A DNA stretch of 31,752 nucleotides from the IMG/VR virus record IMGVR_UViG_3300043446_001152, positions 1 to 31,752 of that record, one strand, 5' to 3'. Below the pieces are notes generated by a model that was not told the origin of the DNA, made no database searches, and saw only the letters and a list, made by a program, of their open reading frames with translations. This document shows positions 23,499 through 30,123 of the stretch, one piece after another. Within the stretch, counting starts at the first letter, position 1, and each line of letters starts with the position of its first letter. The stretch is from a virus. The translations under genes and the position numbers were made by a program.

Positions 23499-23858
23499 TT
23501 ACTGAGTAAATACTGACAATGAATCTGTAACAGATTGAATTGTTGTAGTTCTTTCTACTGTTGTGTCTTTAATTAATCCGGGAGCAGAATAAGTTTCTGA
23601 AAACTGAAATGCTTCTCCTTGATTAATAATTGTATATTGAGTTCCAAGAGTTGGAGTTCCTGGAACATTTACATTTGTGCCTGTAACTGTATAACTAAAT
23701 CCAGTCTGAAAATCTTGTTGCCTAATGACTTCATTTACGGTGGTGGTTGATTCTGTGCGAGAAGTTACAGTGCCACTAGTAAAGTTAGGTGTTACTGGAG
23801 CTGCTAGGGCAGGAAAAGAAAACCCTAGCAGGAATAACCCTGCTAGGATGTTTCTCAT
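23499..23858 (-). CDS. Secreted beta-rich protein, paralogue of the 164-aa neighbour
   Basis: 119 aa with signal peptide (ILAGLFLLGFSFPALAA). The mature protein is Thr/Val/Ser-rich and shares with its upstream neighbour the pattern Y-x-V-x-GTN, then YTI-x-N-x-G-x-AF-x-FSE, and an ending in LSVF. This points to gene duplication. It overlaps the upstream gene by 4 nt (ATGA on the minus strand). A secreted amyloid- or fibre-like role is conceivable; no family is assigned. Confidence 0.72.
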   Translation of the reverse strand: MRNILAGLFLLGFSFPALAAPVTPNFTSGTVTSRTESTTTVNEVIRQQDFQTGFSYTVTGTNVNVPGTPTLGTQYTIINQGEAFQFSETYSAPGLIKDTTVERTTTIQSVTDSLSVFTQ

Positions 23859-24349
23859 TTGAATACACTCAGTTCTACACTACGTTGACCGATTGCAGTG
23901 GTTCCAGAACCACCAGCAGTAACTGTAAGAGCACCTGTAGAGGTATCAATTGTGCCCGCAAGAGTTCCTTTTTCACCTGCTGCTTGTGTGGTATTCTTAC
24001 CATACAGAGTTGGCGATGTAATTGCACCATTGGTAACTGTCTGTGATGTGACAGTGCTGTCTCCAACAGTTAATGATTCTGAGAATGAGAATGCTTGACC
24101 ATCATTGTTGATCGTATAAGTTCCAGCACTCATTGTAGCTGCTGCACTGGATGTTCCACCAGTCAGACCACCTAAGTTTGAAACTCCAATATTAGTTCCC
24201 GAAACTGCATAGGAACTACCGATTCTTTCTGTTTGTACCGCTGCACCCTGTACTGTTAATTGAACGGAATCAGTGATTGTTGATGTAATTTCACCAGCAA
24301 AAGTAGGAGTAGTTAAGAATAACGAAAAGATAAGAGCTAATCTTTTCAT
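23855..24349 (-). CDS. Secreted beta-rich protein (164 aa), first gene of minus-strand unit
   Basis: Signal peptide (RLALIFSLFLTTPTFA) followed by a Ser/Thr/Gly/Val-rich mature region with repeated strand-like segments (SSYAVSGTNIGVSNLGG, GTYTINNDGQAFSFSE, ALTVTAGGSG). Related to the 119-aa neighbour. Similar signal-peptide proteins are found in other T4-like cyanophages, without known function, as I recall. A GATAAATA late-promoter-like site on the minus strand lies 25 nt before its ATG, so the cassette is probably late. Confidence 0.72.
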   Translation of the reverse strand: MKRLALIFSLFLTTPTFAGEITSTITDSVQLTVQGAAVQTERIGSSYAVSGTNIGVSNLGGLTGGTSSAAATMSAGTYTINNDGQAFSFSESLTVGDSTVTSQTVTNGAITSPTLYGKNTTQAAGEKGTLAGTIDTSTGALTVTAGGSGTTAIGQRSVELSVFK

Positions 24350-24652: not shown

Positions 24653-24773
24653 AATCCCTCTCACAAGGGATTACATCATGAGAATTTGATGTGACATTAG
24701 AGCCCAGGAAAGTGCCCTCCGAGAGGAGTGGTGTACCCCCTTTCTATTGGGATGTAGAGTTCAATTAACCTTA
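24653..24773 (+). ncRNA. Candidate structured RNA or leader (train of hairpins)
   Basis: Starting at the predicted transcript end, AATCCCT/AGGGATT (24653-24672) and ACATCA/TGATGT (24673-24692) are perfect hairpins, CTCC-GAGA-GGAG (24717-24728) is a GNRA-capped hairpin, and TACCCC.../GGGATGTA (24734-24756) closes the region. It ends just before the ATG of the tail-lysozyme-like gene. It may be a 5' leader controlling that gene or a separate RNA. No known riboswitch class was recognised. Confidence 0.45.
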
Positions 24774-26420: not shown

Positions 26421-26507
26421 ACTCTCATAAGGCGGCGGGGGTCCAAACTCCGTATAAGTCCTGCCCCTCCCATGCCTCTCATAGAAGCACAAACAGGGAG
26501 GTCTCTT
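26421..26507 (+). other. Folded leader between promoter and tRNA-Arg
   Basis: An 87-nt non-coding spacer. CCTCCC (26466-26471) pairs with GGGAGG (26496-26501), and a G-rich run (26436-26441) can pair with CCCC (26464-26467). No protein gene is supported. Confidence 0.4.
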
Positions 26508-27226: not shown

Positions 27227-27298
27227 GCGGAAGTAACTCAACGGTAGAGTCCCTGCCTTCCAAGCAGGTTGTTGCGAGTTCGAATCTCGTCTTCCGCT
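27227..27298 (+). tRNA. tRNA-Gly (TCC)
   Basis: Acceptor GCGGAAG/CTTCCGC, D stem ACTC/GAGT, anticodon arm CCTGC-CTTCCAA-GCAGG, T arm GCGAG-TTCGAAT-CTCGT. No encoded CCA. Last tRNA of the block. Confidence 0.95.
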
Positions 27299-27315
27299 TC
27301 TTAACCAAATCTTAG

Positions 27316-27344
27316 TTGACATAAGACCAAAAGTGCTGTAAGAT
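27316..27344 (+). promoter_or_regulatory. Sigma70-type promoter of the porin gene
   Basis: TTGACA (27316-27321), 17-nt spacer, TAAGAT (27339-27344). The predicted start near 27351 falls on a 10-bp palindrome ATCTTAAGAT (27351-27360). Confidence 0.7.
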
Positions 27345-27373
27345 ACTCACATCTTAAGATTTGCTTAAGACTC

Positions 27374-27381
27374 CATAAATA
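27374..27381 (+). promoter_or_regulatory. Putative late promoter CATAAATA for the porin
   Basis: One mismatch to TATAAATA, 58 nt before the ATG. Its predicted start (near 27387) falls in the first arm of a perfect leader hairpin GAAGATTT/AAATCTTC (27384-27409). Confidence 0.45.
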
Positions 27382-27439
27382 ACGAAGATTTGCCTTGTTG
27401 TAAATCTTCACATTATCGTTTAGTACAAAAACAAATTTT

Positions 27440-28918
27440 ATGAAAATCAAACAACTGATGCTTGCACCTGTTGCTCTTGGTATGCTTGCCCCTGTTGCAC
27501 AAGCAGCAGACCTTAATATGTCTGGGGTAAATCAGTATGCTTCGGCACAACAAGTCACAAGCGTCACACAGTTCTCTGATGTTCAACCTTCGGATTGGGC
27601 TTATCAAGCACTCTCCAATCTGGTTGAGCGTTATGGTTGCGTTGCAGGTTATCCCAATGGAACCTTCCGTGGTGGTAAAGCAATGACTCGTTTTGAGGCA
27701 GCAGCACTTCTGAATGCTTGCCTTGATCGTGTGACTGAAACCACTGATGAACTTCGCAAACTTCTTGCTGAGTTTGATGCAGAACTGACTGTTATCACTG
27801 CCCGTGTAGATGGTATTGAGAGTAAAGTTGGACAACTTCAAGCAACTCAATTCTCTACTACTACCAAACTGAATGGTGAAGCAACCTTCGTTCTTGGTGG
27901 TGCTCCTGGTTATAAGACAACTACTGGTGCTACTGCTGGTAATACTGCATTTAACTATGATCTCCGTCTGAACCTGGATACTTCTTTCACTGGCAAAGAT
28001 TTGCTCCGCACTCGTCTGCGTTCTGGCAACTTCTCCAGTGCTCCTTTCGGTTCTGCTAATTCCATCTTCAAACTGGATAAAGCAGAAGTTTCTACCGCAG
28101 GTGCCAGCAATGTCTGGTTGGATCGTCTTTACTACCAATTCCCTGCAGGTAAGAATGTAACTCTGACTGCTGGTGCTCTGGTTCGTAACACTGAGATGGC
28201 TTGGATTCCTTCGGCATACAAGTCGAATATTCTTGACTTCTTCCAACTCGGTGGTGCTTCTGGTGTTTATAACAAAGCAACTGGACAAGGTTTCGGTGCT
28301 CAATATAAACAACCTGGAACTCAAGGTTTTGTTGCTAACCTGAACTATGTTGCTGTTACTGGTTCGGATAGTTCCACTGGTGTATTTGATTCCTCTGGTG
28401 GTCTGAATGCTCTTGCTCAGATTGGATACCGTGCTCCTCAATGGGGTGTGGCAGTAGGATACCGTTATGGCACTGAAGGTTCACGAGTTCGTAACTACAA
28501 TGCTCTTGGCGGTGGTTCTGGTGCCCTTACAAACGGTCAGGATTCCAACAGCGTAGCATTCAATGCTTACTGGCAACCTAAGACCTCTGGTATCGTTCCT
28601 TCCATTAGCTTCGGTTATGGATACAATGGTGTGAGTGGTGCTGGTGCTGTTACTGGTGCTACCAATTCTCAATCTTGGTTCACTGGACTTCAGTGGTCTG
28701 ATGTGTTTGCTAAGGGTAATGCCGCTGGTGTTGCTGTTGGACAACCTTCAAACTCTGAGAATGCTAAAAAAGCAACTCTGTTTGAGGCATTCTATAAGGT
28801 TCAAGTATCTGATAACATCTCAGTTACTCCTGCAATCTTCTATGCTTCTGACAACCAAGGCACTCTGAATGCCTCCTCTGGTTGGGGCGGTGTTGTTCAG
28901 ACAACCTTCAAGTTTTGA
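27440..28918 (+). CDS. SLH-domain OprB-type outer-membrane porin (cyanobacterial SomA/SomB-like)
   Basis: 492 aa, complete. Signal peptide 1-22 (LAPVALGMLAPVAQA). An SLH domain at about 45-105 (FSDVQPSDWAYQAL, RYGCVAGYPNGTF, MTRFEAAALLN) anchors to peptidoglycan-linked polymer. A short coiled coil follows (LAEFDAELTVITARVDGIES), then an OprB-type beta barrel ending in the Phe-terminated strand VVQTTFKF that outer-membrane assembly needs. This is the architecture of the major cyanobacterial porins, so the gene is probably host-derived. It has sigma70 and late-type promoters and a hairpin leader. Third positions look less AT-rich than in neighbours. Possible roles: nutrient entry during infection or masking of a phage receptor. 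Confidence 0.93.
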   Translation: MKIKQLMLAPVALGMLAPVAQAADLNMSGVNQYASAQQVTSVTQFSDVQPSDWAYQALSNLVERYGCVAGYPNGTFRGGKAMTRFEAAALLNACLDRVTETTDELRKLLAEFDAELTVITARVDGIESKVGQLQATQFSTTTKLNGEATFVLGGAPGYKTTTGATAGNTAFNYDLRLNLDTSFTGKDLLRTRLRSGNFSSAPFGSANSIFKLDKAEVSTAGASNVWLDRLYYQFPAGKNVTLTAGALVRNTEMAWIPSAYKSNILDFFQLGGASGVYNKATGQGFGAQYKQPGTQGFVANLNYVAVTGSDSSTGVFDSSGGLNALAQIGYRAPQWGVAVGYRYGTEGSRVRNYNALGGGSGALTNGQDSNSVAFNAYWQPKTSGIVPSISFGYGYNGVSGAGAVTGATNSQSWFTGLQWSDVFAKGNAAGVAVGQPSNSENAKKATLFEAFYKVQVSDNISVTPAIFYASDNQGTLNASSGWGGVVQTTFKF

Positions 28919-29052: not shown

Positions 29053-29061
29053 ATCAGGGGG

Positions 29062-29086
29062 GGGGAGTTGACAAACTCCCCTTTTT
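29062..29086 (+). terminator. Intrinsic terminator with TTGACA at its apex
   Basis: GGGGAGTT (29062-29069) pairs with AACTCCCC (29074-29081) around a GACA tetraloop, then five T. It follows a run of nine G (29057-29065). Same design as the terminator at 18845. Confidence 0.85.
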
Positions 29087-29096
29087 AGTGTATTAT
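29068..29096 (+). promoter_or_regulatory. Sigma70-type promoter overlapping the terminator
   Basis: TTGACA (29068-29073), 17-nt spacer, TATTAT (29091-29096). The spacer is the 3' half of the terminator. Predicted start near 29103, 14 nt before the ATG at 29117. Confidence 0.65.
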
Positions 29097-29116: not shown

Positions 29117-29272
29117 ATGTCTCTCATATCACAACAAGATAGAACACTTGCAATTAAAGCATTAGAGCATTATACTTCCTCATTTAAGGATGTTATGACC
29201 GAAGCAGAAAGAGCAGAATCAAATGCTCTTCTTAATTGGATTAAACTGGAGCATTATAAAAATGAACATTAA
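29117..29272 (+). CDS. 51-aa hypothetical protein
   Basis: First frame after the promoter, from ATG 29117. Soluble, helical, charged (RTLAIKALEHYTSSFK, TEAERAESNALLNW). Overlaps the next gene by 11 nt. No family recognised; the promoter directly upstream and the overlap support it. Confidence 0.6.
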   Translation: MSLISQQDRTLAIKALEHYTSSFKDVMTEAERAESNALLNWIKLEHYKNEH

Positions 29273-29435
29273 ACTTTGGTATTGTGCTTCTATGAAACAG
29301 TGGAGATGGACACTTACTGATAGTTCTCGTCCTATTCGTAAACAAGAATCTGGTCAACGTCCATTTCTTCGTGATGCAATGAATGATGTTGCAAATACTG
29401 TGGAGTTTATGCTAGAATCCAGTCATCCTGACTGA
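29262..29435 (+). CDS. 57-aa hypothetical protein
   Basis: ATG 29262 is preferred to an in-frame ATG at 29223 inside the previous gene, because it gives a normal short overlap. The protein (MNIKLWYCASMKQWRW...) is aromatic and basic at the N-terminus and ends ESSHPD. It ends 7 nt before tRNA-Val. No motif recognised. Confidence 0.6.
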   Translation: MNIKLWYCASMKQWRWTLTDSSRPIRKQESGQRPFLRDAMNDVANTVEFMLESSHPD

Positions 29436-29442
29436 TTTTATT

Positions 29443-29514
29443 GGGCGATTGGCGCAGCGGTAGCGCAGCTGCTTTACACGCAGACGGTCATTGGTTCGAA
29501 TCCGATATTGCCCA
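29443..29514 (+). tRNA. tRNA-Val (TAC)
   Basis: Acceptor GGGCGAT/ATTGCCC, D stem GCGC/GCGC, anticodon loop TTTACAC with TAC, T arm ATTGG-TTCGAAT-CCGAT. No encoded CCA. A late promoter begins 3 nt after it. Confidence 0.94.
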
Positions 29515-29517
29515 CTT

Positions 29518-29544: not shown

Positions 29545-30123
29545 ATGGAAAAATTATACAAACTCATTAGTGATGTGCAGGCAAATCTGTTTGTTCTTTT
29601 TCATAAGACTTGGGTTTTTCATTGGAATGTAGTTGGACCTGATTTTCAACAACTTCATACTCTATTCGGTGGGCAGTATGAAACTATGTTTGAAGAGATT
29701 GATCGTATCAGCGAACATATGCGTTTTATGAATGTTCGTCCAATTGGAACTCTCACCAGAATGGTTGAAGTTGCAACAATTGGTGAGGGATCGAATATTT
29801 CCCAAATTGATGAGATGGGCCAAAAGCAAATCATTCCTGGTAAACCAATTACAAAGGCAGAGGAGATGATTAAGCGTTTGATGCTTGATAATCTTACTAT
29901 TGTTGAGTTACTTACTGCCTTATCTGAAGAAGCAGAAGCACAGAAGCAATATGCCACAGCAAATCTATCTCAAGATTTGATGGAATCGCATGGTAAGTTT
30001 GTTTGGATGTTGAGGTCATTTACTGAAAAGACTGCTAAACTTTCAATCGAAGATTCTGAGCAAACACCAATTGAAGTTCCAGAAGAGCAACCTGAACAAC
30101 AAATTCAAATACAGCAACAATAA
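29545..30123 (+). CDS. dps: Dps-like ferritin-family protein
   Basis: 192-aa four-helix protein of the Dps family (DNA protection during starvation). The intersubunit ferroxidase ligands are present: H26 (HWNVVGPDF), H38, D53 and E57 (EEIDRISEHMR). Dps dodecamers store iron, detoxify peroxide and can bind DNA. The C-terminal ~30 residues are Gln/Glu/Pro-rich and extend beyond usual Dps. ATG 29545 is chosen because it lies just after the late promoter; the longer in-frame GTG start lies inside tRNA-Val. Late expression suggests protection of progeny DNA or iron handling late in infection. Confidence 0.88.
   Translation: MEKLYKLISDVQANLFVLFHKTWVFHWNVVGPDFQQLHTLFGGQYETMFEEIDRISEHMRFMNVRPIGTLTRMVEVATIGEGSNISQIDEMGQKQIIPGKPITKAEEMIKRLMLDNLTIVELLTALSEEAEAQKQYATANLSQDLMESHGKFVWMLRSFTEKTAKLSIEDSEQTPIEVPEEQPEQQIQIQQQ

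Follow-up and report, generated by a model that had tools for sequence, protein, structure and literature searches.

The gene examined here lies in a linear virus record from IMG/VR, 31,752 bp long and analysed over its whole length (hereafter the window); the DNA polymerase encoded there is closest to the enzymes of S-SRM01 and S-SKS1. Flanked by tRNA-Gly on one side and tRNA-Val (29443–29515) on the other, it encodes an intact SLH-OprB porin of the SomB family (Table 1). Both Pfam domains score above cut-off, SLH with an E value of 5.3e-11 (amino acids 45–88) and OprB with 3.1e-11 (amino acids 100–492), and NCBIfam NF033921 (por_somb, "iron uptake porin") matches over model positions 1–485 of 485 at 286.7 bits against a cut-off of 100 (E 2.9e-85); a PHROGs family for the porin was not found. 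In an AlphaFold model built from 45 phage relatives, a helix at amino acids 103–136 is followed by 16 strands between 141 and 491, with pLDDT mostly 70–94 in the barrel and a poorly modelled SLH domain and coil. Together with the C-terminal Phe, these matches bear out the sequence-only reading of the gene as a complete, phage-borne SLH-OprB porin. Among solved structures, those closest in fold are OprB, OprO/OprP, Omp32 and the attachment porin OmpM1 of Veillonella parvula (PDB 8bym, 8byt). The last of these joins SLH, coil and barrel in one protein and matches in both sequence and fold, but it is cellular and distant, and at the sequence level the similarity is confined to the SLH domain and coil.

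Table 1. Features of the porin locus, in window coordinates
Feature	Position	Strand	Remarks
tRNA-Gly, left flank	27227..27298	+	
Pho-box-like tandem repeat CTTAACCA-AAT-CTTAGTTG, running into the -35	27300..27318	+	CTTAN7CTTA form
Left copy of AGTTGACA, module border	27314..27321	+	
Sigma70-type promoter TTGACA-N17-TAAGAT	27316..27344	+	sequence scan
Second CTTAN7CTTA, inside the inverted repeat TCTTAAG-ATTTG-CTTAAGA (27352-27370), just 3′ of the -10	27353..27367	+	
Late-promoter-like ATAAATA	27375..27381	+	
Leader hairpin	27384..27409	+	z about -2.9
SLH-OprB (SomB-family) porin gene	27440..28918	+	492 aa, ATG start, no internal stop
Likely signal peptide, aa 1-23	27440..27508	+	judged by eye from sequence
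SLH domain, aa 45-88	27572..27703	+	Pfam; cell-wall binding expected
Long helix, aa 103-136, coiled coil expected	27746..27847	+	AlphaFold model
16-strand barrel, aa 141-492	27860..28915	+	AlphaFold model and fold comparison
G/C hairpin and T run enclosing the next promoter's -35 (promoter-terminator composite)	29057..29086	+	
Right copy of AGTTGACA, module border	29066..29073	+	
Small ORF, right flank, homologue of the ORF after pstS in S-SKS1	29262..29435	+	
Dps/ferritin-like gene, frequent neighbour	29545..30123	+	

The surroundings of the gene are those of a module that comes and goes. Many contigs share one gene order: a phrog_512 gene, tRNAs ending in Arg, Asn, Thr and Gly, the porin, tRNA-Val and Dps. 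One relative (L300) represents the empty site, in which the porin is missing and the window's left and right borders are joined at AGTTGACA; it upholds the proposal, made from the sequence alone, that this is a site of gene gain near tRNAs. In other contigs this site, or one close by, is occupied by a PF24653 barrel together with pstS, by a porin of a second lineage or by a small SLH barrel. The marine isolate S-SKS1 has, after tRNA-Gly, a PF24653 barrel, then PstS and the homologue of the window's small right-flank ORF. The cassette site lies between tRNA-Gly and small downstream ORFs, and related phages hold other envelope genes there, or nothing. At the right border of the module, the -35 of the next promoter (29068–29096) overlaps a strong hairpin. 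Composite promoter and stem-loop cassettes, termed PeSLs, have been described for T4-type phages (cited in PMC4503421). As in those cassettes, the porin site pairs an early promoter with a stem-loop at its border, and the module is present or absent between borders. Cassettes were probably exchanged by recombination at the duplicated early-promoter sequences.

The small SLH barrel that can take the porin's site is a second SLH-anchored phage protein, annotated in S-PM2 as a "putative S-layer protein". Copies occur at L003:3935-4813 and L004:3932-4771 and in L292, L301, L304, L308, L356 and L419. In S-PM2 and S-CREM1, the match to the window porin is restricted to the SLH and coil part; these proteins resemble the porin there, but they are about 280–290 aa long and an OprB domain was not found in them. 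S-PM2d169, directly after the small SLH barrel gene, is listed as raised in phosphate-depleted hosts (PMC10976474).

Among the genomes of the phage collection searched, a full porin copy is found in S-SRM01 only. This protein (QPX48248) is 69% identical to the window porin over its full length and likewise sits between tRNAs and Dps; its "porin" label is a GenBank annotation, undiscussed in the phage's paper. IMG/VR, by comparison, holds hundreds of relatives: four query scans yielded 137 distinct phage porins, and the promoter scans brought the number to 163. The porin is carried by 29 of 42 Dps-anchored contigs spanning the locus and, where the phrog_512 gene at 24747 served as anchor, by 12 of 29, rough fractions (about 40–70%) for loci that were retained by similarity. 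It is therefore common yet optional, not core. One phage contig (G011, the record of L064) has two full porin genes, at 62786–64165 and 77589–78953.

In a first tree, the phage porins formed one group with a support of 99. Inside it falls a porin from a Microbacteriaceae MAG (L085), 91% identical to a phage copy and probably a mis-binned phage contig. A wider tree recovered a main phage group of 42 with modest support (78/63) and placed L370 and L397, with their kin L400 and L403, among the host porins L089 and L097. Because a single phage origin for all copies is rejected in that tree (AU p 0.006), the porin must have passed between host and phage at least twice. Identity between the phage group and its nearest host porins does not exceed about 66%, and GC3 is 0.31 in the phage porin, a phage-like value, against 0.67–0.71 in the sister host pair. 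Purifying selection prevails throughout (dN/dS 0.13 overall). By these measures the window porin is no recent capture, nearly all 163 copies belonging to one phage group. The sequence-only reading had set against itself a long-standing phage-only clade present in most cyanophages; the group is indeed long-standing and nearly phage-only, but presence in most cyanophages is not what emerged, S-SRM01 being the one isolate with the gene.

The host relatives of this group give the first indication of function. Adjacent pstS genes occur in 7 of 13 loci of host porins from the sister and near clades and in 0 of 36 loci of other host porins (Fisher 2e-5), a count made on flanks of only about 1.3 kb and on related, nonindependent genomes; two of the PstS neighbours were confirmed by TIGR00975. 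These SomB-type porins of the pstS locus (L089, L097 and the near clade) share family and domain order with the window porin, but are chromosomal and differ from it in identity and sister-pair GC3 as given above. On the phage side, PstS lies at most 700 nt downstream in 29 of 94 distinct query-sampled porins, and all 86 loci that have both genes carry them on the same strand, the locus counts including many related sequences and hence not independent events. In the window itself, pstS was not found within the 2.8 kb downstream of the porin.

The porin's promoter provides the second indication. The sigma70 promoter, late-like promoter and leader hairpin named in the sequence-only reading were all located (Table 1), and TTGACA-N17-TAAGAT-type sites number five in the window against 0.26 expected. 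The Pho-box-like repeat and the two AGTTGACA copies at the module borders had escaped that reading. CTTAN7CTTA, the form in use for cyanobacterial Pho boxes, lies 5′ of 32 of the 121 phage porins, where shuffling predicts 0.7. A scan of all IMG/VR viral contigs with CTTAACCWNNNCTTARTTGACA, which occurs once in the window, placed 65 of 80 classified matches 5′ of a porin and five 5′ of a PF24653 barrel; the scan is independent of the porin sequence, yet its pattern was derived from porin promoters. With the P-SSM2 form of the element, 13 of 16 matches lie 5′ of a PF24653 barrel, PstS or porin, and in two cases porin is followed by PstS. The P-SSM2 form itself belongs to the g247-pstS operon, where an outer-membrane barrel (PF24653) stands beside pstS behind an element nearly identical to that of the window porin promoter, although g247 is a 118-aa small barrel without SLH, below a porin-size pore. 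Host PhoBR reportedly controls pstS of P-SSM2 (PMC10976474), the related host porin slr1908 is PhoB-induced (PMC11126600), and pstS-bearing phages reportedly escape the lysis delay in starved hosts. A consensus scan for the Pho box within the window alone was not significant; the box is absent from the S-SRM01 porin promoter, unlike the window's, and from copies with only a late-type promoter, and a clear Pho box of their own was not found in the host sister porins.

The leaders of phage porins contain further recurrent elements. Those like the window's inverted repeat occur in 24 of 121, and a motif, (T/A)CGTTTAGTA, found at 27415–27425 shortly 5′ of the ATG, recurs in 48 of 121 in varied contexts. 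An alternative leader form combines a late-type promoter with GTAGTTGTAATTCTTAAC.

A host-type porin at a phosphate-gene site, behind a Pho-like promoter, thus probably keeps phosphate entering the infected cell. We consider it fairly probable that the gene is a phosphate-stress auxiliary porin, raising uptake during infection from a Pho-box promoter at a swappable cassette site; the step from linkage and promoter to greater phosphate uptake is one that we infer. The product would be a full-length outer-membrane protein, kin of the host pstS-locus porins, lending auxiliary nutrient uptake during infection. Given the Pho-box-like repeat in the early promoter of the window and many relatives, host PhoB should increase porin transcription in phosphate-starved cells; the porin should then insert as an SLH-anchored trimer and would let more inorganic ions, chiefly phosphate, cross the outer membrane. 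The next gene would supply a phage PstS too in roughly one relative out of three. A change in nutrient uptake had been suggested from the sequence and is possible in principle for a complete host-type porin; the evidence now narrows it to one nutrient, phosphate. A broader proposition, for which the scales are about evenly balanced, is that the locus is an envelope-protein swap site tied to the host phosphate switch, where full host-type porins, small barrels and PstS replace one another in the manner of alleles and the virus supplies both the outer-membrane pore and the periplasmic binding protein for phosphate uptake. Known phage help with phosphate, through pstS and phoA, acts at the periplasm. 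If this is true, a full porin governed by that switch would extend the help to the outer membrane, the virus providing this step of phosphate uptake as well, and would give a likely role to a gene so far annotated merely "porin".

The Dps gene next door raises the question of iron instead. On this account the porin passes inorganic iron, Dps stores iron or protects DNA, and the pair serves iron-dependent ribonucleotide reductase and photosynthesis genes; nrdA and nrdB are present in the window, the NF033921 family bears the name "iron uptake porin", and iron content is lower by about 40% in a Synechocystis Slr1908 mutant (PMC8707739). This rival has to be taken seriously, since Dps neighbours the porin as often as PstS does, lying no more than 3 kb away in 29 of the 82 query-sampled loci. 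However, the window's Dps is a flexible neighbour that occurs with and without the porin, the closest host porins adjoin pstS, relatives place PstS or PF24653 barrels at the same site, and the promoter element is common to porin and phage pstS promoters. Iron uptake is accordingly judged unlikely as the main role. A host ferritin-like neighbour was considered as the source of the phage Dps and set aside, the one pair compared having no similarity.

The outer loops bear on another possibility, raised by the sequence-only reading: that the phage porin replaces or dilutes a host porin used by other phages as receptor, and so excludes superinfection. Such an action has been proposed for the Lc porin of a lambdoid phage. 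The loops are indeed the least host-like part of the protein, L7 and L8 having identities of 0.10–0.13 to near hosts, and S-SRM01 also has a large surface-glycan cluster. Rapid loop change is normal for any porin, however, and the loops are under purifying selection much like the rest (dN/dS 0.16 against 0.13 overall), which does not favour the proposal but is compatible with exclusion all the same. A porin receptor for these phages was not found in the literature searched, nor was anything specific on cyanophage porins, and exclusion leaves the pstS linkage unexplained; we regard it as improbable.

Less probable still is a chiefly structural role, in which the protein, anchored by its SLH domain, would fasten the outer membrane to the cell wall and curb vesicle loss or early lysis while contributing little transport. 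Loss of an SLH-OprB protein does lead to hypervesiculation in Synechocystis (PMC8707739), and the small SLH barrel can fill the same site. But so can PF24653 barrels without SLH, and pstS, which also occur at the site or with the same promoter element, and the barrel and its L3 loop are conserved as much as the SLH domain. The phosphate porin remains the reading we prefer on all three comparisons.

Barrel charge and codon usage were also considered. The barrels of phage porins are less acidic than those of most hosts, a property that the sister host porins share; ancestry therefore accounts for the lower acidity, and the idea of reading anion selectivity from barrel charge was dropped. A capsid-like codon bias was likewise rejected, the S-SRM01 porin ranking only 63 of 153 by likeness to the gp23, sheath and tube genes. 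This porin wholly avoids AGA/AGG, TTA/CTA, ATA and CCA, and it comes ninth of 153 when ranked on effective number of codons, which suggests, short of proof, that it is strongly translated.

Several other features accompany these loci. Downstream of porin and Dps in S-SRM01, a region at 191592–211240 (L449, L450) encodes a fucose pathway, glycosyltransferases and a UDP-2,3-diacylglucosamine diphosphatase; remodelling of the cell surface by this phage may be more extensive. On the minus strand of the window, two adjacent small-protein genes (23499–24349; 119 and 164 aa) have signal-peptide-like starts and are paired in several relatives. Within the tRNA block, at 26466–26502, lies an abiF RNA (RF03085, 44.8 bits), an element reported in S-CREM1 as new to cyanophages.
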